A stretch of DNA of 23,255 nucleotides from positions 1 to 23,255 of the IMG/VR virus record IMGVR_UViG_3300010151_004145, one strand, 5' to 3'. Below the pieces are notes generated by a model. The model was not told the DNA's origin. It searched no databases and saw only the letters and a program-made list of their open reading frames with translations. Shown one piece after another: positions 4,909 to 23,255 of this stretch; within the stretch, counting starts at the first letter, position 1, and the number at the start of each line of letters is the position of its first letter. The DNA is from a virus. The position numbers and the translations under genes are program-made.

Positions 4909-4943
4909 AGGTGTTGAAGATAATTTCACAAAAAGTTAAATCT

Positions 4944-6365
4944 ATGAATGAAAACAAATCGATAGATAGGTTAACATTTTTATCAAAAAAATTTAACATT
5001 TTTAATCTTAAAAATGACTATACAGAATCGGACTTAAACGAAATTACCCCATATAATAACTTTAAAAAAATAAAGGGGCACAATAGCAATATACTAGCAT
5101 TAAGATGTGTTTCTGAAATAAAAAAAATAAAACCAAATGGTTCTGAAGTTATCAAAAATAAGGTCAATGTTTATATAACTGACCGTGTATTTAACACAAT
5201 AATTAAGTCAGACCCAACCCCCAATAAAATATACACACAATGGATACTTAACTTATTTTCAAAGTTATTAAAGAATGAAGAAACAATCAGTGATGCTATT
5301 AGGTTGGTTGAAGAAGATTTGCCATTAGCTGAAGTTTATTTAAATTTATTCGAAAATAATAAGAGAAAACAAAAATTTAAAAAACTTTGTTCTGGAAGTT
5401 ATGTCTTAAAGGATATTAAAGACCCAACAAACATAAACCAATATAAGTCTCTTTCTCAACTATATGATGCTATTGACCCATTCATTGAACGAGACCCATC
5501 TGAGATGGAAACATTAATACAAAAATTTGTAGATAGTGGGCAAGCTGAGATATCAGTTAGATGTAGGAAATTTACGGTTTATATTCCTAAAACAAGAGAT
5601 GCTAATTGCATATTTAATAAATTTGTTAATTGGTGTACGGCCACCCCTGGTAATGGTATGTTTTCTCACTATATAAATTATAAAACACCAAGCAACCCCA
5701 AATCGGTCTTATATGTTATAATAAATAATAAATTTTTTAATGGAGAGTTAGAAGATAATTATCTTTATCAAATACATTTTGAAAGTAATCAGATTAAGAA
5801 TAGGAAACAAAATAAACATGGTGATTTTTTTAGTGATGTGATAAATGAGAGTGAAACAATTTCTAAATATTTTTATGATATATTAAACCCTATGGCCACA
5901 CAGGTTGGTACTAATAAAAATAACATTTATTTAGAGTATCAAATAAAATTTGGTTGGACCCAAGCTTTATTTGATATTATTGACGAATTCACACCAATCA
6001 TACGAATATTAAATAGGGATATACCTAAATTAGCTAATTTATCTAGATTTACTAAATTAAATACGTTAGCAATTGCAAATGCTAATTTATCTAAATTGCA
6101 CAAATCATTAAAAACATTAACAAATTTAAAAGAATTAATACTCCCAAATAACAAATTAACATCATTACCGAAAGAAATTGGGGCATTACAAAACCTTATA
6201 TTCCTTAATATATTAGGTAATAAAATAACAAACATACCCGATGAAATCAAGTTTCTTGATAAAACAAATGGGGGTAAGTTATATAGATTAGCTGTAACAC
6301 CGAAAGATATTGGTAAACACAATTATGATAGATTACGGAAATTATTACCATCGGTTGAAATGTAA
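4944..6365 (+). CDS. WCTA-motif protein with C-terminal leucine-rich repeats
   Basis: 473 residues from the ATG at 4944; an in-frame GTG at 4911 would add 11 residues (MLKIISQKVKS), and that longer form is possible. The central region has V-N-W-C-T-A (residues 228-233), then an L-Y-V-I strand (257-260) and Y-Q-I-H-F-E-S-N-Q (275-283). The order (Cys motif, strand, Gln/aromatic strand) is reminiscent of the PcfJ core encoded at 1656-2825, which may indicate distant homology. The C-terminal 110 residues hold about four leucine-rich repeats (for example LTNLKELILPNNKLTSLPKEIG at 392-413) and end in a DRLRKLLPSVEM cap like that of the LRR protein at 16055-16777. LRRs usually bind proteins. Enzymatic role, if any, unknown. 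Confidence 0.78.
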   Translation: MNENKSIDRLTFLSKKFNIFNLKNDYTESDLNEITPYNNFKKIKGHNSNILALRCVSEIKKIKPNGSEVIKNKVNVYITDRVFNTIIKSDPTPNKIYTQWILNLFSKLLKNEETISDAIRLVEEDLPLAEVYLNLFENNKRKQKFKKLCSGSYVLKDIKDPTNINQYKSLSQLYDAIDPFIERDPSEMETLIQKFVDSGQAEISVRCRKFTVYIPKTRDANCIFNKFVNWCTATPGNGMFSHYINYKTPSNPKSVLYVIINNKFFNGELEDNYLYQIHFESNQIKNRKQNKHGDFFSDVINESETISKYFYDILNPMATQVGTNKNNIYLEYQIKFGWTQALFDIIDEFTPIIRILNRDIPKLANLSRFTKLNTLAIANANLSKLHKSLKTLTNLKELILPNNKLTSLPKEIGALQNLIFLNILGNKITNIPDEIKFLDKTNGGKLYRLAVTPKDIGKHNYDRLRKLLPSVEM

Positions 6366-7315: not shown

Positions 7316-9862
7316 CTAAGAAATTATAATTTCACCTATTTTTTTATCATAAGAAATTTTAATCAATTGCCCTTCATTAACTTTACCATTTAATATTGCA
7401 TCAGCAATTGGGTCTTCAATATAACGTTGTATTGCTCTATTTAGTGGTCTTGCACCATAAGCTTCATCATATCCCTCTTTTGCAACATAATCAATGGCAC
7501 TTTTATTAACCTTTATCTTATAATTAACCTCAAGTAACCTAACTTTTAATTTTTCTAATTCGTGTTTAATGATTAAATTTATATCATTTTGTTTAAGACT
7601 ATTAAAAATTATGGTATCATCAATTCTATTTAAAAATTCTGGGTTAAATTTTTTCTTGAGGGCTTTTTCAATGATAGACCTTGATTTTTCTTGTTCATTA
7701 ACAATTGTGGCACTCGTCTTAAACCCAAGATTATTACCAAATTCGTTAACTTGTTTAACACCAACATTTGATGTGAGTATTATAAGACAATTTTTAAAAT
7801 TTATTTTTCTACCAGACCCATCAGTTAGTTGACCTTCGTCAAGAACTTGTAAGAGTATATTAAATACATCATTATGGGCTTTTTCAATCTCATCAAATAA
7901 TATTACTGAGTATGGTTTCCTCCTAACTTTTTCGGTTAATTGCCCACCCTCACCATAACCAACATAACCTGGTGGTGGACCAATAAGCCTAGATACTGAA
8001 TGCTTTTCCATATATTCAGACATATCCATTCTTATTAATGAATCAATATCCCCAAACATGTGTTCGGCCAACAATTTAGAGAGATAAGTTTTTCCTACCC
8101 CTGTTGGGCCTAGGAAGATAAAAGAAATTGGTTTATCTTTATCCTTTATACCCAATCTACTTCTTTTTATGGCATTAACAACCTTAACAACGGCTTCATC
8201 TTGACCTATAACCCTATCCATAAGTTCTTTATCCATTGTGAGTAGTTTTTCATTTTCTTTTGTTGATATTTTACTTAGGGGGATTCCAGTCATTGTTGAA
8301 ATAACCTCACATATGTGTGTTTTATTAACAATTGACCTTTCCTTATCCAAAGATTCTAACCATTCTTCTTTAGCAATGATTAGTTTTTTATTAATTTTTT
8401 TCTCTTCATCCCTTAATTTAGCAGCCTCTTCATATTTTTGCATCTTTACCACATTTATTTTTTTTACATTAATATTTTCTTTTTCTCCTTCAAGTATCTT
8501 AATGTTTTGTGGGGTTTCTTGATTTATGTTTCTAGCAGCACCTGCTTCATCTAAAATATCGATTGCTTTATCTGGCATTGCCCTATGAGAAATATATCTG
8601 TGTGACATTTTAACACATTCATTGATTGCTTCAGTAGTATATGTAACTTTATGATAATTCTCATATGAGAATTTTATATTATTTAATATAATCTTAGTTT
8701 CTTCAAGTGTCGGTTCTTCAATTAAAACTTGTTGAAATCTTCTAGTTAACGCACCATCTGTTTCTATGTTTTCCCTAAATTCATCAAGTGTTGTCGCACC
8801 AATAACTTGTATTTGACCCCTAGCTAACGCTGGTTTAAATATATTTGCCGCATCCATACCCCCAGACGTATTTCCAGCACCAACAATTGTGTGAAGTTCA
8901 TCAATAAATAAAATAACATCTAAATTATCTTTTAATTCGTCTAATATTGCTGTCATTCTTTCTTCAAATTGACCCCTATATTTTGTTCCAGCAACAATTG
9001 TTGGTAAATCAAGTGAATATATTTTTTTATTTAATATAATTCTTGGTGCTTTACCGTCATTAATCATAATAGCCAAACCTTCAGCAATTGCCGTTTTACC
9101 AACCCCAGGTGCACCAATTAAAACTGGGTTATTTTTCTTTTTTCTAGATAATATTTGCGCAACCCTTTTAATTTCCTTTTCTCTACCGATAACAACATCT
9201 AATTTACCTTCTTTAGCTAATTGTGAAATATCCATACAAAATCTATCCAACACTGGTGTTTTACTATTTTTATTTGAACTTTTTTTACCACTTCTTGCCC
9301 CGCCAGAGTCGGCTGGCCCACTATTAAATTCCTCCGTTGAATTTTTAAAGTCATCGGTTTTTTTAAGCATATCTTCAATTTTTTTTAATTCATTATCTAA
9401 AGTATCATTTTCTTCATTATAATCTAATACCCACTCAAAAAAACTATTATATGTTATTTGATGTTTTTTAAGTAGTTTCAATAAGTCCAATTTTTTTAGA
9501 CTGAGCATACTTAAAATAATATGTGATGTGTCGATAAATGTATCGTTTAATTTTGTTGCTTCATAATCTAACCCATCTAAAAGTTTTTTGCTTTTGTCGC
9601 TAAAGGGTAGTTTGAGTTTTTTTTTGTCATTCACCCCATGATAATCAAAAGTTTGTGTTAATGTTAGATATCGACTTATGTCATCATATAATTCATTTAA
9701 ATCTATACCAATTTCATCCATTATATTGGTCGATTTATTTTTATTATCATTTATTATTGATAATAATATATGTTCTGGTTTAATATATTTATCACCGTAA
9801 TTCTTCGCTTCCGCATTGGCATCTTTCATTATTGTTTTAACTTTTGGTAATATTTTTTTCAT
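7316..9862 (-). CDS. clpC: ClpC-like AAA+ unfoldase
   Basis: 848 residues from the ATG at 9862, chosen because it begins at the Clp N-domain; the frame stays open upstream to 9973 but that part is not Clp-like. Order of parts: two Clp_N repeats (about 1-150), a Ser/Gly linker, D1 AAA+ with Walker A GAPGVGKT at 250-257 and Walker B ILFIDELH, a UVR-type motif in the middle insert (about 472-490, QKYEEAAKLRDEE), and D2 with GPTGVGKT at 585-592, the pore segment GYVGYGEGG, and VILFDEIEKAH. The UVR motif marks ClpC rather than ClpB. An L-G-F tripeptide (712-714, bases 7721-7729) sits where ClpC/ClpA carry the ClpP-docking loop. Known family role: ATP-driven unfolding and feeding of substrates to ClpP. 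No clpP is in the window, so use of host ClpP is inferred. Confidence 0.95.
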   Translation of the reverse strand: MKKILPKVKTIMKDANAEAKNYGDKYIKPEHILLSIINDNKNKSTNIMDEIGIDLNELYDDISRYLTLTQTFDYHGVNDKKKLKLPFSDKSKKLLDGLDYEATKLNDTFIDTSHIILSMLSLKKLDLLKLLKKHQITYNSFFEWVLDYNEENDTLDNELKKIEDMLKKTDDFKNSTEEFNSGPADSGGARSGKKSSNKNSKTPVLDRFCMDISQLAKEGKLDVVIGREKEIKRVAQILSRKKKNNPVLIGAPGVGKTAIAEGLAIMINDGKAPRIILNKKIYSLDLPTIVAGTKYRGQFEERMTAILDELKDNLDVILFIDELHTIVGAGNTSGGMDAANIFKPALARGQIQVIGATTLDEFRENIETDGALTRRFQQVLIEEPTLEETKIILNNIKFSYENYHKVTYTTEAINECVKMSHRYISHRAMPDKAIDILDEAGAARNINQETPQNIKILEGEKENINVKKINVVKMQKYEEAAKLRDEEKKINKKLIIAKEEWLESLDKERSIVNKTHICEVISTMTGIPLSKISTKENEKLLTMDKELMDRVIGQDEAVVKVVNAIKRSRLGIKDKDKPISFIFLGPTGVGKTYLSKLLAEHMFGDIDSLIRMDMSEYMEKHSVSRLIGPPPGYVGYGEGGQLTEKVRRKPYSVILFDEIEKAHNDVFNILLQVLDEGQLTDGSGRKINFKNCLIILTSNVGVKQVNEFGNNLGFKTSATIVNEQEKSRSIIEKALKKKFNPEFLNRIDDTIIFNSLKQNDINLIIKHELEKLKVRLLEVNYKIKVNKSAIDYVAKEGYDEAYGARPLNRAIQRYIEDPIADAILNGKVNEGQLIKISYDKKIGEIIIS

Positions 9863-9942
9863 ATTAATGAATATTGGTTGTGTATTATATATTTTACTGT
9901 TCCCAATCATGAACACTAAAGTAATGTAATTTTTTATAATTA

Positions 9943-9973
9943 CAAATATAATAAATGTTTTATATAAAATCAA
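9943..9973 (-). promoter_or_regulatory. Bacteroidota-type promoter for clpC
   Basis: Read on the minus strand: TTG (9971-9973), a 20-base spacer, then TATATTTG (9943-9950). This matches the known flavobacterial pattern of TTG and TAnnTTTG separated by about 17-23 bases. It points at clpC, whose ATG is 81 bases downstream. It is the best host-type promoter in the window and suggests expression by the unmodified host polymerase, possibly early. Confidence 0.6.
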
Positions 9974-16054: not shown

Positions 16055-16777
16055 ATGAAACACTACATAAAACAAAGGTTTAGAGAATCTCTTTTAAATG
16101 AAGAACCAAGTGATGTGGATAAAATAATCAATCTATTAAAATCTGGAGATGAATCAAATATTGAATTAGCATATGCTCTTGGAGAGGGACAAGGTATTAA
16201 TGTTGATGAATTGGTTAAATCAATATATGGTATATTGTTAACTAAATCAAAAGGTAACACAATAAAAAATAAGTTATTAAATCTATCCAATTTGAAGGGG
16301 TTAGATTTATCTAATAACAAACTAACCACATTGACAAAAGGCATAACCAATCTAACCAATTTGAAGTATTTGAATTTAGAATATAACAAACTAACCAGTT
16401 TAGAAGGTATAGAGAATTTAACCAATTTGATATGGTTGAGGTCATCTAATAACCGACTAACCACATTGACAAAAGGCATAACCAATTTGAAGGGGTTGGA
16501 TTTACGTAATAACAAACTAACCAACTTAAAAGGTATAGAGAATTTAACCAATTTGAAGGTGTTGTATTTAGATAATAACAAACTAACCACATTGCCAAAA
16601 GGCATAACCAATCTAACCAATTTGAAGGGGTTGTATTTATCTAATAACAAACTAACCAGTTTAGAAGGTATTGAGAAGTTCACCAATTTGGAGAGGTTGT
16701 CTTTACATAATAACCCGATAAGTGATGAAGAAATTGAACGAATAAAAAAATTATTACCAGATACAAAAATATATTAA
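16055..16777 (+). CDS. Leucine-rich repeat protein with L-x-E N-terminal tag
   Basis: 240 residues. Residues 1-16 (MKHYIKQRFRESLLNE) are a basic helix ending L-N-E, the tag type shared with several genes. A short helical domain follows (to about 75), then seven leucine-rich repeats of the L-x-x-L-x-L-x-x-N-x-L type (about 77-225), closed by a cap EEIERIKKLLPDTKIY. Repeats alternate between a 23-residue form (LTTL.KGITN) and a 22-residue form (LTSLEGIEN). No signal peptide or membrane anchor. LRRs form curved protein-binding surfaces; here the target may be a host or virion protein. It shares its cap style with the LRR protein at 4944-6365. Confidence 0.88.
   Translation: MKHYIKQRFRESLLNEEPSDVDKIINLLKSGDESNIELAYALGEGQGINVDELVKSIYGILLTKSKGNTIKNKLLNLSNLKGLDLSNNKLTTLTKGITNLTNLKYLNLEYNKLTSLEGIENLTNLIWLRSSNNRLTTLTKGITNLKGLDLRNNKLTNLKGIENLTNLKVLYLDNNKLTTLPKGITNLTNLKGLYLSNNKLTSLEGIEKFTNLERLSLHNNPISDEEIERIKKLLPDTKIY
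16283..16710 (+). repeat. Coding LRR repeat array with two-repeat superunit
   Basis: Tandem units of 69 and 66 bases alternate within the LRR gene, nearly identical at DNA level (for example CTAACCAATTTGAAGGGGTT). The fourth unit lacks 9 bases (16481-16489 region), fitting slippage between two ACCAAT copies. Confidence 0.8.
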
Positions 16778-18224: not shown

Positions 18225-20012
18225 ATGCTAACTAATGAAGAAATATTAACCGAATACTTTAAATCTATTAAAGACCCTGTGTACGCAATTGAAACTTATC
18301 TCGAAACAAAAGATAATACACAAGGTGGGTTTGTACCATTCAAACTATTCCCAAGGCAGAAGCAAATAGTACGAGCATATGACACCCATAGGTTCAATCT
18401 TGTGGCAAAACCAAGACAAGCTGGTATATCAACAACTACACAGGCATATATGGCCGTAAAGTGTGCATTTGCTGACTCAGATAACCCAGAAACGGTTTTA
18501 CTTATTGCAAATAAATTAAAACTAGCGCAAAAATTTCTTAGAGGTATAAAAGACTACTTATTGCAAATACCAAGATGGGTATGGGGTGATGAGTATTATG
18601 GTACCCCAGAAAAAGAAAAAAAAGATATATTCTTATCAAATTCAAAAATAGAAGTTGAATTACCAAATGGTTGTCAAATAATAGCTGTGGCGACATCTGA
18701 AGATGCATTAAGGGGTTATACTCCAACATATTTAATATTTGATGAGGCCGCATTTATTGATAATGGTGATGCTGTTTATGCTGCTGCAATGTCTTCTTGT
18801 GCTACTGGTGGTAGGGTGATGCTTATTTCAACACCGAATGGTATGGATTCTCTATATTATAAGACGTATGAACAATCCAAAAGCGGTAAAAACAATTATA
18901 ATATCATTGAAATGAGATGGTATGAAGACCCAAGGTATAATAAAGGTTTATGTTGGATTAAAAAGGATGATAAGGGAAATATATTGGAAGAAATAAACGA
19001 ATTTGAGTTTATAAATGAAAAATATAGGGTTAGGATAAAGAATGGTTATAAGCCAACATCCCCATGGTATGAAAATATGTGCATGACATTAAATAATAAT
19101 GTAAAAAAGATTGCACAAGAGTTAGATGTTTCATTTCTTGGTTCTGGTGGTAATGTTATTGCTGATGAAGATATTATATTTCACGAAGAAAATAACGTTG
19201 AGGACCCAGTTTGGGTTGATGGTAGAGAAAAAGAATATTGGATTTGGGAAAAACCAATAGAAGGTCACCAATATATACTTAGTTCTGATGTTGCGAGAGG
19301 AGATGGTGAAGATTCATCGACTATTGTAATAGTTGACTTCACGACAATGAAACAAGTTATGGAGTATCAAGGGAAAATACCACCAGATTTATTGGCTGAA
19401 ATCATATATGAATATGGTAATTTATATAAGGCTTATACTATCGTTGATATTACTGGTGGAATGGGTGTTGCAACAGTGTTGAAACTACTTGAAATGAAGT
19501 ATAAATATTTACATTATGACGCACCAAGAGGCAAAATACTGAATAGTAAAAAGGCGCAATTAACACCACATTCAAAAGATAGTAAGATACCAGGATTTAA
19601 TGCTAATGGGGTTAGATTACCAATGATTGCCAATTTTGAACGAATGGTTAGGGAAAATGGTGTTATAATTAAATCAAGAAGATTGATTTCTGAAATGAAA
19701 ACGTTTGTATATAGAAATGGTAGGCCAGACCACATGAGGGGTTATCATGATGATTTAATTATGGCTATGTGTATGGCACTTTGGGTTCTTGAGCATTCAT
19801 TTAAGAAATTAGAAAAGATGGAAAAACAAAATAAAGCCATGTTATCTAGTTGGAGAATAGGTAGCTCTAATAAGAAACAAAACGAAGATAATAATACTGG
19901 GGTAGTAAATAATAAAAAGGTATTGAAAAAACCTAAGTTTAGTAGAAATGTTTCTAAGAATATGCAAGACCCAAATGGTGACTATTTATGGTTATTTGGT
20001 AGATTTAAATAA
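18225..20012 (+). CDS. terL: Terminase large subunit (T4 gp17-like)
   Basis: 595 residues, usual length for a T4-type large terminase. N-terminal ATPase: Walker A variant A-K-P-R-Q-A-G-I-S-T-T (61-71), Walker B Y-L-I-F-D-E (169-174), and coupling motif S-T-P-N-G (202-206). C-terminal RNase H-fold nuclease: D355 in S-S-D-V-A-R-G-D, D408 in I-V-D-I-T-G-G, and D509/D510 in Y-H-D-D-L-I-M-A, the expected metal-binding acids. It cuts concatemeric DNA and drives it into the prohead through the portal. All key residues appear present and no intein or frameshift interrupts it. It is preceded by a terminator and followed 66 bases later by the portal gene. Confidence 0.97.
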   Translation: MLTNEEILTEYFKSIKDPVYAIETYLETKDNTQGGFVPFKLFPRQKQIVRAYDTHRFNLVAKPRQAGISTTTQAYMAVKCAFADSDNPETVLLIANKLKLAQKFLRGIKDYLLQIPRWVWGDEYYGTPEKEKKDIFLSNSKIEVELPNGCQIIAVATSEDALRGYTPTYLIFDEAAFIDNGDAVYAAAMSSCATGGRVMLISTPNGMDSLYYKTYEQSKSGKNNYNIIEMRWYEDPRYNKGLCWIKKDDKGNILEEINEFEFINEKYRVRIKNGYKPTSPWYENMCMTLNNNVKKIAQELDVSFLGSGGNVIADEDIIFHEENNVEDPVWVDGREKEYWIWEKPIEGHQYILSSDVARGDGEDSSTIVIVDFTTMKQVMEYQGKIPPDLLAEIIYEYGNLYKAYTIVDITGGMGVATVLKLLEMKYKYLHYDAPRGKILNSKKAQLTPHSKDSKIPGFNANGVRLPMIANFERMVRENGVIIKSRRLISEMKTFVYRNGRPDHMRGYHDDLIMAMCMALWVLEHSFKKLEKMEKQNKAMLSSWRIGSSNKKQNEDNNTGVVNNKKVLKKPKFSRNVSKNMQDPNGDYLWLFGRFK

Positions 20013-20078: not shown

Positions 20079-23000
20079 ATGGCGAAGAAAAGATTAACAA
20101 TATTTCAAAGGCTTAATAATATATTTGGTCCAGATGGAGTTAATATACAAAAAGATAAAACTAATAGATATTCTATAAGTAATGATGTTTTATTAAAAAC
20201 ACAAGATAAAGCAGAATATGATGTTGCGAAATTACAAGCGCAACAAAATAAATATTTAGGTGGAACGTGGAGAAAAGTAGATAATGAACTTTTTCAAAAA
20301 GCTGTTCATTATGAAACAACAAGAATTGGGTCATATTCTGATTTTGAAAGTATGGAATTCTACCCAGAAATTTCTGCCGCATTAGATATTTTTATGGAAG
20401 AATCCACAACGGTAAACGAAAAGGGGAGAGTATTAAACATTTACTCCGACTCTAAGAGAGTTAAGACAATATTAGAGGACTTATTTTTTAATAGATTGGA
20501 TATTCACACATCCCTACCAATGTGGACTAGAAATGTATGTAAATATGGTGATAATTTTGTTTTTTTAAATATCGATGATAAGGCTGGTATTATTGGTTGT
20601 AGGCAAATGCCAAACTTTGAGATTGAACGTAGAGAGGGAGATTTATACAGTAGACTCACTAACACTAATAGCGCATCTAGTGAGGAAGAACCAAAAGTTA
20701 AATTTATTTGGAGAGGTAGGGATGTAGAATTTAATTCATGGCAAATTGCACATTTTAGGTTATTGGGTGATGATAGAAGACTCCCATATGGTACCAGTGT
20801 TTTAGAGAAAGCTAGAAGGATTTGGAAACAATTAATTCTATCTGAAGATGCTATGTTGATTTATAGGGTAACAAGGGCACCAGAAAGAAGAGTATATAAA
20901 ATATATGTTGGTAATATTGATGATGAAGACGTACCAGCATATGTTGATGAGATTGCAAATAGATTTAAAAGAATGCCAATTATTGACCCACAAACTGGTC
21001 AAATTGATTTACAATATAACCAATTAGCTAATGACCAGGATTTCTTCATACCCGTTAGAAGTGAAGATGCACCAAACCCTATTGATACATTGGCTGGGGC
21101 TTGTATCGCTTTAGATACTAGAATCCCTTTATTAGATGGGAGAACATTGGAACTTAATGAAATAATTAATGAATGGGATAATGGTAATAGAGATTTATGG
21201 GTGTATTCGTGTGACCCACAGACTGGTAAATTAGCACCAGGTATGATTACGTGGGCTGGAGAAACTAGAAATAATGCTGAAGTAATTAAAATTACCTTAG
21301 ATAATGGTGAAGAAATTATAACTACTCCAGACCATAAATGGGTTCATAGAACTAATGGATTTGTTGAAGCCAAAGATTTAAATATTGGGGACTCTTTAAT
21401 GCCCTTTTATAAAGACACTAAAAAGATTAAATCTAATACAAATAATTATGAGCGTGTTTGGGATAGTTCTAAACAACAATGGGTTTTCACCCATAGGATG
21501 GTTACTAATTATTTAAATAATACAAACATTATTGAAGAATATGTGTATGATAAAAAATACACCAATAAAAATAAATTAGTAAGGCATCATAAGGATTATA
21601 ATCGTTTTAATAATAACCCAAGTAACTTAGTTTGGATGAATGTGTTAGACCATATTAAATTACACCAAGATGTTATATTGGAAACTATTTGGGCTAACCC
21701 CAAAGAAAATAAGGAAAAAATACGTAAAGGGGTTAATACCTATATTTCAAACTTAACTGAAGAAGAAAAGAAACTTAGAGGAATACAATCTAAATTAAAT
21801 TCAATTAATTCTAGGGATAAAGCTAAAAATACTTATCTTAATAACCCAAATAAATTAAATTTTGATATTGTTAGAACCAAAAATTCACGTAATTACTGGT
21901 CTAAGGGTTCCTCTAAAGAAAAACAATCAATTAAAGCTAAAGAATTATGGGAAAGTGAAGAATATAAAAATAAAGTTTTTAATAAAAAACAAAAATTAAC
22001 ATTTACCAACACACTTTATAATATGTTTTTTGAAATGTTTAAACAATATGGTAAGGTAGATTTAACACTAATAGAACTTAATAAATCTGAAGAATTTATG
22101 TATGAATTCTTCAGCACTAATAAAAGTATTAGAAGTTCATTAACTAATTTAAATGAATTCACTAGAAATCACCTAGACAAAATGATTAAAGAACGTGGGT
22201 TTAAAAATTATAGAGAATGGTGTAAGATTGCCGCTGAAGAATTAGGATATAAAAATGTTAGAGCTTGGAGATATTTTATAAATAAAGAAAAGAAAATATT
22301 ATATAACCATAAGATTATTAATATAGAATACTTAGAAAACAAAATGAACACTGGAACTATTACCGTAGATGGTGATGAAAAATACCATAATTATCATACA
22401 TTTGCGATAGAATCTGGGGTATTCATTAAAAATTCTAATTTGGATGCGATAGCAGATATAGAGTACCTCCAGCGAAAATTATTTACCGCATTAAGGGTAC
22501 CAAAAGCCTTTCTTGGTTTTGAAGACCCACAAGGTGAGGGGAAGAATTTAGCTCTCCAGGATGTTAGATTTGCTAGAACTATTAATAGGATACAACAAGC
22601 ATTAATAATGGAATTAAATAAAATAGCAATATTGCATTTATTCTTGCTTGGTTTAGAAGATGAGTTAGATAATTTCACACTAACACTTAACAACCCATCG
22701 ACACAAGCTGAAATGCTTAAGTTAGAACATTTACAATCTAAGGTAAATCTATATAAGGATGCTGTTAGTGATGGTGGTAATGGTTTTGGTGTTATGTCCA
22801 TGACAAAAGCTAAAAGAGAAATACTTGGGTGGTCAGACGATGAGATTAAACAAGACCTATTAGAACAGAGATTAGAAAAAGCAGCATCAGCTGAAATGGA
22901 AAATACACCAGAAGTTATAAAATATACTGGAACATTTGATGAAGTTGATAGGCTTTATGGTGACATTAATATCGCTAAAAATGTTGGTGGTGAGGGTGCT

Positions 23001-23255
23001 GAAGGTGGTGGTGATAGTAGTGGTAGTAGTGGAGGTGGCTTCGGTGGTGGTGATGTTGGGGGTCTTGATTTTGGTGATGAGGGTGGTGATGACCTTGATT
23101 TTGGTGGTGATGAGGGTGGTGATGAGGGTGGTGATGACCTTGATTTTGGTGGTGATGAGGGTGGTGATGACCTTGATTTTGGTGGTGATGAGCCAACTGA
23201 TGAATCTGTAAAAAAAGATGAAAATTTATTATTGGAACAAATGAAAAAACATAAT
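20079..23255 (+). CDS. Portal protein (T4 gp20-like), intein-containing, 3' end beyond window
   Basis: An open frame of 1059 codons runs from the ATG at 20079 to the right edge with no stop. N-extein residues 1-341 hold the T4-type portal core, including L-P-Y-G-T-S-V-L-E-K-A-R-R (about 244-256) and the R-A-P-E-R-R-V segment typical of gp20, then Q-D-F-F-I-P-V-R and D-T-L-A-G-A. The C-extein resumes at S786 with N-L-D-A-I-A-D-I-E-Y-L-Q-R-K-L-F-T-A-L-R-V-P, the next conserved gp20 block. Without the intein, 615 residues are visible. The portal is a 12-fold ring at the head vertex that initiates assembly and passes DNA. The C-terminal part has an acidic Gly/Asp repeat tail unusual for gp20. The start follows an A-rich leader. 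Confidence 0.95.
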   Translation, partial: MAKKRLTIFQRLNNIFGPDGVNIQKDKTNRYSISNDVLLKTQDKAEYDVAKLQAQQNKYLGGTWRKVDNELFQKAVHYETTRIGSYSDFESMEFYPEISAALDIFMEESTTVNEKGRVLNIYSDSKRVKTILEDLFFNRLDIHTSLPMWTRNVCKYGDNFVFLNIDDKAGIIGCRQMPNFEIERREGDLYSRLTNTNSASSEEEPKVKFIWRGRDVEFNSWQIAHFRLLGDDRRLPYGTSVLEKARRIWKQLILSEDAMLIYRVTRAPERRVYKIYVGNIDDEDVPAYVDEIANRFKRMPIIDPQTGQIDLQYNQLANDQDFFIPVRSEDAPNPIDTLAGACIALDTRIPLLDGRTLELNEIINEWDNGNRDLWVYSCDPQTGKLAPGMITWAGETRNNAEVIKITLDNGEEIITTPDHKWVHRTNGFVEAKDLNIGDSLMPFYKDTKKIKSNTNNYERVWDSSKQQWVFTHRMVTNYLNNTNIIEEYVYDKKYTNKNKLVRHHKDYNRFNNNPSNLVWMNVLDHIKLHQDVILETIWANPKENKEKIRKGVNTYISNLTEEEKKLRGIQSKLNSINSRDKAKNTYLNNPNKLNFDIVRTKNSRNYWSKGSSKEKQSIKAKELWESEEYKNKVFNKKQKLTFTNTLYNMFFEMFKQYGKVDLTLIELNKSEEFMYEFFSTNKSIRSSLTNLNEFTRNHLDKMIKERGFKNYREWCKIAAEELGYKNVRAWRYFINKEKKILYNHKIINIEYLENKMNTGTITVDGDEKYHNYHTFAIESGVFIKNSNLDAIADIEYLQRKLFTALRVPKAFLGFEDPQGEGKNLALQDVRFARTINRIQQALIMELNKIAILHLFLLGLEDELDNFTLTLNNPSTQAEMLKLEHLQSKVNLYKDAVSDGGNGFGVMSMTKAKREILGWSDDEIKQDLLEQRLEKAASAEMENTPEVIKYTGTFDEVDRLYGDINIAKNVGGEGAEGGGDSSGSSGGGFGGGDVGGLDFGDEGGDDLDFGGDEGGDEGGDDLDFGGDEGGDDLDFGGDEPTDESVKKDENLLLEQMKKHN
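21102..22433 (+). mobile_element. Intein with HNH homing endonuclease in the portal gene
   Basis: 444 residues (portal residues 342-785), in frame. Block A starts at C342 (CIALDTRIPLLDG). Block B has T-P-D-H-K-W-V with T416 and H419 in the TxxH arrangement, then F-V-E-A-K-D-L-N-I-G-D. Blocks F/G: Y-H-N-Y-H-T-F-A-I-E-S-G-V-F-I-K-N, ending N785, with S786 as the +1 nucleophile. The penultimate residue is Lys, not the usual His. Between them is an HNH motif (R-H-H-K-D-Y-N-R ... N-P-S-N-L-V-W ... H-I-K-L-H, bases 21585-21665). Splicing would join LAGA to SNLDAI, a continuous portal sequence. Confidence 0.93.
23082..23192 (+). repeat. Three identical 33-bp units coding for GGDDLDFGGDE
   Basis: Units at 23082-23114, 23127-23159 and 23160-23192 are identical and in frame with the portal. 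A 12-base GGDE unit (23115-23126) separates the first two. They lie inside a longer Gly/Asp/Ser-rich segment (from about 22981) near the C-terminus of the visible portal. Confidence 0.9.

Follow-up and report, generated by a model that had tools for sequence, protein, structure and literature searches.

The portal gene of an uncultured T4-like phage is interrupted, almost certainly, by a class 1 mobile intein that bears an HNH nuclease and occupies a recurrent site of T4 gp20-like portal genes. The analysed DNA, called the window below, is a 23,255-base virus fragment from IMG/VR. An earlier sequence-only reading had proposed a complete HNH intein in this gene, and intein profiles, the Hint fold, the HNH motif and empty alleles in relatives all agree with that proposal.

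The interrupted portal gene

The portal reading frame begins at 20079 on the plus strand and, in the frame translation, is open throughout to the end of the window. As the window stops within the C-extein, the 3' end of the gene lies outside it; in the relative L003 the portal and intein form a full frame of 1114 codons. The N-extein (20079..21101, plus strand) holds the first 341 residues of the portal and ends in DTLAGA; besides Pfam Portal_T4, it matches the PHROG portal family (E 2e-49) and the T4 gp20 structures 3ja7 and 6uzc. The C-extein (22434..23255, plus strand) starts from Ser+1 and carries the remaining portal with a Gly/Asp-rich tail. Portal_T4 is matched with an overall E of 3.5e-64 in two stretches that span positions 5-426 of its 433: the first (5-277) breaks off at base 21101 and the second (278-426) restarts at base 22434. 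Since the profile resumes at 278 straight after 277, no part of the portal is missing or duplicated. The large terminase subunit (T4-type, intein-free; 18225..20012, plus strand; Pfam Terminase_6N 7e-10, PHROG terminase 8e-43) lies directly upstream and places the portal in a head/packaging block. The Portal_T4 match over its length and the adjoining terminase together identify the gene as a T4-like portal gene (gp20). Among named phages, the closest portals without an intein belong to Microcystis phage Mel-JY01, at 41% identity, and Flavobacterium phage immuto, at 38%.

Some other features of the window were recorded. The Gly/Asp-rich repeats of the portal C-terminus (22990-23200) differ in length among close relatives. 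Two leucine-rich-repeat proteins are encoded at 16055-16777 and 4911-6365, and near-identical DNA repeats in the first of these cross-align with relatives of the window. A ClpA/ClpB-type AAA+ ATPase is encoded at 7316-9973 on the minus strand, opposite to the portal.

The insert itself (21102..22433, plus strand) measures 1,332 bases and encodes 444 residues, from Cys1 (codon 342, TGT, 21102-21104) to the terminal Asn444 (codon 785, AAT, 22431-22433), with Ser+1 next; profiles, the predicted fold and the empty alleles L040, L041 and L042 support these limits. Residues 1-103 (21102..21410, plus strand) make up the N-terminal half of the Hint splicing domain, with Cys1 and block B (T75-P-D77-H78); the intein_Nterm profile TIGR01445 (1-79) matches from intein residue 1 with an E of 1.4e-10, over the cutoff of that profile. 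The C-terminal half (residues 402-444; 22305..22433, plus strand) was placed by its conserved residues and contains block F His432, Lys443 and Asn444. The PF14890 Intein_splicing match (E 2.5e-7) scores 31.1 bits, slightly under the curated cut-off of 35.8. The best curated match, NF052663 (RtcB_rel_intein2), aligns across residues 1-444 with an E of 1e-29; the host protein of that family is RtcB, and the match is confined to the intein part and stays under the full-length cutoff of the family.

Between the two halves lies the HNH motif HHKDYNRFNNNPSNLVWMNVLDHIKLH (residues 162-188; 21585..21665, plus strand), recognised weakly by Pfam (HNH_3, E 0.017) and more strongly by PHROGs (HNH endonuclease, E 8e-5). 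Its active-site pattern HH...N...DH..H is intact, as in an HNH homing endonuclease. Residues 189-397 (21666..22292, plus strand) follow it as the helical part of the homing endonuclease; the AlphaFold model shows the helices of this part, and it is presumed to bind DNA. A LAGLIDADG nuclease was considered and rejected, with no match in Pfam or NCBIfam, in line with the earlier assignment of the nuclease to the HNH type.

The AlphaFold model of the intein, built with 19 sequences, has a mean pLDDT of 83, with values of 89-97 in the N-terminal half of the splicing domain (residues 1-103) and 91-97 over the first 100 residues. Foldseek gave 39 PDB matches to it at E <= 0.001, and nearly all among the matches listed are inteins, which points to a Hint fold in the model. 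Cys1, the block B TxxH, and the C-terminal Asn with Ser+1 are those of a class 1 intein, and without the insert the host protein reads through unbroken, as judged from both the Portal_T4 277|278 junction and the empty alleles. The penultimate His that is usual, not obligatory, in class 1 is replaced by Lys443; this is not counted against class 1 membership, since phage class 1 inteins without this His are known according to Kelley et al. 2016 (PMC5050341). Cys37 of the intein (21210-21212, in WVYSC), for which no catalytic role is known, is present in at least 90% of the aligned relatives; a redox role is conceivable.

Empty and occupied alleles

In L040 and L041 the portal is 96% identical in protein, the insert is absent and the exteins are joined in frame as DTLPGA|SNLD. 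Together with the break in the Portal_T4 match, these intein-free alleles confirm that the junctions proposed earlier (C342, N785, S+1) are exact. Among the distinct portals that were gathered, 62 are empty and 54 are occupied at the window site, numbers that give a biased frequency because some loci were found via the intein itself. The 62 portals without the insert also settle a point on which the sequence-only reading could have failed, namely that homologues might carry the segment as an ordinary stretch of their portals. A search with the N-extein only gave 76 empty and 2 occupied loci among the best 80 in an automatic count, L043 being a third occupied one.

The insertion junction aligns between residues 353 and 354 of T4 gp20 (6uzc numbering). 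In the T4 structure, residues 350-359 lie within the channel loop (PMC4493910). This loop connects the clip domain with stem helix 7, narrows the bore to about 28 angstrom and is conserved to an exceptional degree. An intein in the channel loop of a 12-subunit ring would block DNA passage and ring assembly, so splicing should be obligatory; from this position it is very likely that splicing is needed for a working portal. The +1 residue is Ser in all 53 scorable occupied sites. At the empty sites it is Ser in 30 of 62, and Gln, Thr, Ala or Asp in the other 32; a similar pattern of +1 Ser has been described for the MCM-d intein (PMC10643990).

None of 50,697 phage records held the same intein at the same site in an isolated phage, and the best of them was metagenomic (LR756508), with three portal inteins, all at other sites. 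No match of the region at the DNA level was found among deposited phages. GTDB genomes yielded only three relatives, all from metagenome-assembled bins.

Lineage, selection and mobility

A profile search of IMG/VR returned 342 relatives of the intein. The 78 loci kept from it, with the earlier loci, gave 57 distinct inteins (90% identity) at exactly the window site. Fifty of them have Lys as the penultimate residue and four have Phe, while Asn, Tyr and Arg occur once each; none has His. Residues that are invariant in the 19-sequence alignment include Cys1, T75, D77, H78, G418, T419, D423, H432, G439 and N444. The HNH motif is found in 53 of the 57. Two inteins, L153 (207 aa) and L032 (197 aa), are nuclease-free and lack the helical region, the nuclease of L030 has decayed and that of L134 is partly lost; all four retain the splicing blocks and the penultimate Lys.

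In seven pairs omega was 0.05-0.15 for the splicing domain and 0.11-0.47 for the endonuclease region, and by this measure strong purifying selection acts on the splicing domain. The low omega of the splicing domain and the presence of Lys in 50 of 57 inteins, also in nuclease-free forms, indicate that Lys is the normal state of the lineage; Lys443 as a sign of decay was ruled out on the same two grounds. The earlier suggestion that the penultimate Lys makes splicing slow or conditional thus finds no support in these sequences. By analogy, PMC5050341 argues against it as well: class 1 inteins of mycobacteriophages have Gly, Lys or Ser at the penultimate position, restoring His in one of those with Gly slowed splicing, and it was suggested that the His of block F substitutes for the penultimate His.

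The comparison of L011 and L012, each recovered from two assemblies, bears on mobility. Their inteins are 97.9% identical in DNA and the flanking exteins 79-82%; over the stretch that runs from about base 300 of the intein to its 3' end, identity approaches 100%, and it drops immediately outside. Over 3.4 kb upstream, L043 agrees with the empty-site L041 at 410 of the 435 informative positions, but 10 of the 12 informative positions in the last 151 bases before the junction are of the window type, and all 458 available bases of the intein are identical to those of the window. This tract is apparently the trace of homing with patchy co-conversion. Because the intein is cut off by the end of the L043 contig, the assembly there may be chimeric, although two L041-type positions within the switched tract argue against a simple chimera. 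Both L043 and the L011/L012 pair point to movement into intein-free alleles.

Many pairs of inteins retain 33-50% identity where the C-extein parts of their portals agree at only about 17-27%. On a tree of 116 portals the occupied or empty state changes at least 17 times, five of these changes being forced by supported branches. The branches of L153 and L164 are artificially long, with a second intein lying within their 80-residue flank, and those of several distant rows are also long; for that reason we relied only on the changes at supported branches and on the nucleotide comparisons. Judged from these comparisons, the window intein is a mobile class 1 intein that has been horizontally transferred. 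The site-341 inteins of L194 and L208 are mosaic (3' halves 95-99% identical, HNH region about 53%), which suggests shuffling of the nuclease part.

Splicing, alternatives and the wider portal family

The mechanism that best explains these data starts with one precursor of about 1,110 residues, which would be translated from the portal gene. The Hint domain (Cys1, block B TPDH, block F His, Asn444 and Ser+1) would remove residues 342-785 and ligate LAGA with SNLD; the spliced portal would have about 666 residues. Because a retained 444-residue domain on each of twelve subunits would hardly be tolerable, splicing is very likely both efficient and obligatory. We infer from sequence that splicing occurs, and likewise its rate. 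During mixed infections the HNH enzyme would cut intein-free portal alleles at the presumed cleavage site, and repair would copy the intein in together with a short flanking tract.

A genuine intein with slow or switchable splicing, acting through Lys443 or Cys37 to time portal and head assembly, is an unlikely alternative to which we nonetheless give the most weight among the rivals. It draws on the absence of the penultimate His across the lineage, on the near invariance of Cys37, though this is no known catalytic residue, and on conditional splicing documented in other inteins (cited in PMC7156551). Lys is, however, common to the lineage, and one mycobacteriophage intein splices faster with its native non-His residue than with His (PMC5050341); moreover, the empty sites in close relatives mean that a regulatory role is not required.

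We regard as less probable still that the window intein is degenerate, either splicing but immobile or mobile but defective in splicing. The loss of the HNH part in L153 and L032, its decay in L030 and its partial loss in L134 count in favour of this reading, but both catalytic sets are intact in the window, and recent movement is suggested by the 458 bases that are the same in a contig with different flanks. That the segment stays in the portal as a permanent domain would agree with a reading frame open throughout, and is the most improbable reading of all: it conflicts with the exact C1/N/S+1 boundaries and the Hint fold, with the sporadic occurrence among near-identical portals and with a location in the DNA channel loop, and it was ruled out by the empty alleles and the exact junctions. 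The efficiently spliced, mobile class 1 intein remains the preferred reading.

Inteins of other portals in the family were found after reference residues 94, 108, 153, 239, 252, 264, about 308, 316, 327, 341 and 378, the window site being 341. Three inteins are present in one portal in L126/L127/L129 (a frame of 1,847 codons), L153, L199, L202, L219, L254 and L036, the last being the 484-kb phage record LR756508; the portal of L221, which is truncated, probably has three as well. Automatic boundaries were wrong for L022, L124, L134, the first insert of L153, L196, L199, L203 and L229, and these were read by eye or omitted. L022 (702-2468) has two neighbouring inteins at portal sites other than that of the window, TGGG|C...FN|S and YNPM|C...KN|S, with just some ten extein residues between them.

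Inteins that begin with Pro occur at site 153 (L126, L221, L236, L249 and L254) and at site 316 (L153, L164, L199 and L229). Those of the main group keep the block F Cys (DVYCMEV or DVYCMTV), with an internal WC, and of the WCT motif they appear to lack both Trp and Thr, the motif positions having been read by eye. The definition of class 3 inteins includes the WCT motif and the block F Cys (PMC7664689). From their sequences, the Pro-first inteins may follow a class 3-like splicing route although their motif is incomplete. We lean towards seeing the T4-like portal gene of this uncultured phage group as an intein hot spot, with at least 10 sites, up to three inteins per gene and Pro-first class 3-like inteins at 153 and 316. 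Such many-site intein loading of a phage structural gene was not found in the literature searched, which covered few subscription journals.

The sequence-only reading held that portal inteins are less often described. They are indeed uncommon in the literature, but Kelley et al. 2016 (PMC5050341) already report PORT inteins in the portal protein of cluster C1 mycobacteriophages, so that both portal inteins and a penultimate Lys are known from mycobacteriophages. The PORT inteins belong to another phage group and are likened to the one in the window by host gene, not by site or sequence. Haloarchaeal MCM (four sites) and polB (three sites) are likewise single conserved genes with more than one intein, each with a nuclease of its own, and in MCM-d a Ser lies directly downstream of invaded sites, as here, and the flanks are co-converted, as they apparently are here too (PMC10643990); those are archaeal replication genes, whereas here a phage structural gene has at least 10 sites across relatives. 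The TerL inteins of the T4-like Salmonella phages Maynard and Marshall and of Campylobacter phage IBB_35 are also Hint inteins in a packaging gene, but their host gene is the terminase and not the portal.

Inteins are mostly known from genes of replication and nucleotide metabolism. Here a capsid gene that forms a 12-subunit DNA channel has been invaded repeatedly, in the channel loop itself, and empty, full, nuclease-free and apparently freshly transferred alleles are all on hand for study. The natural set of class 1 inteins with a penultimate Lys is useful for work on the assistance of Asn cyclisation and for new splicing tools. For annotation, portal genes of 1,100-2,000 codons are to be expected in such phages.
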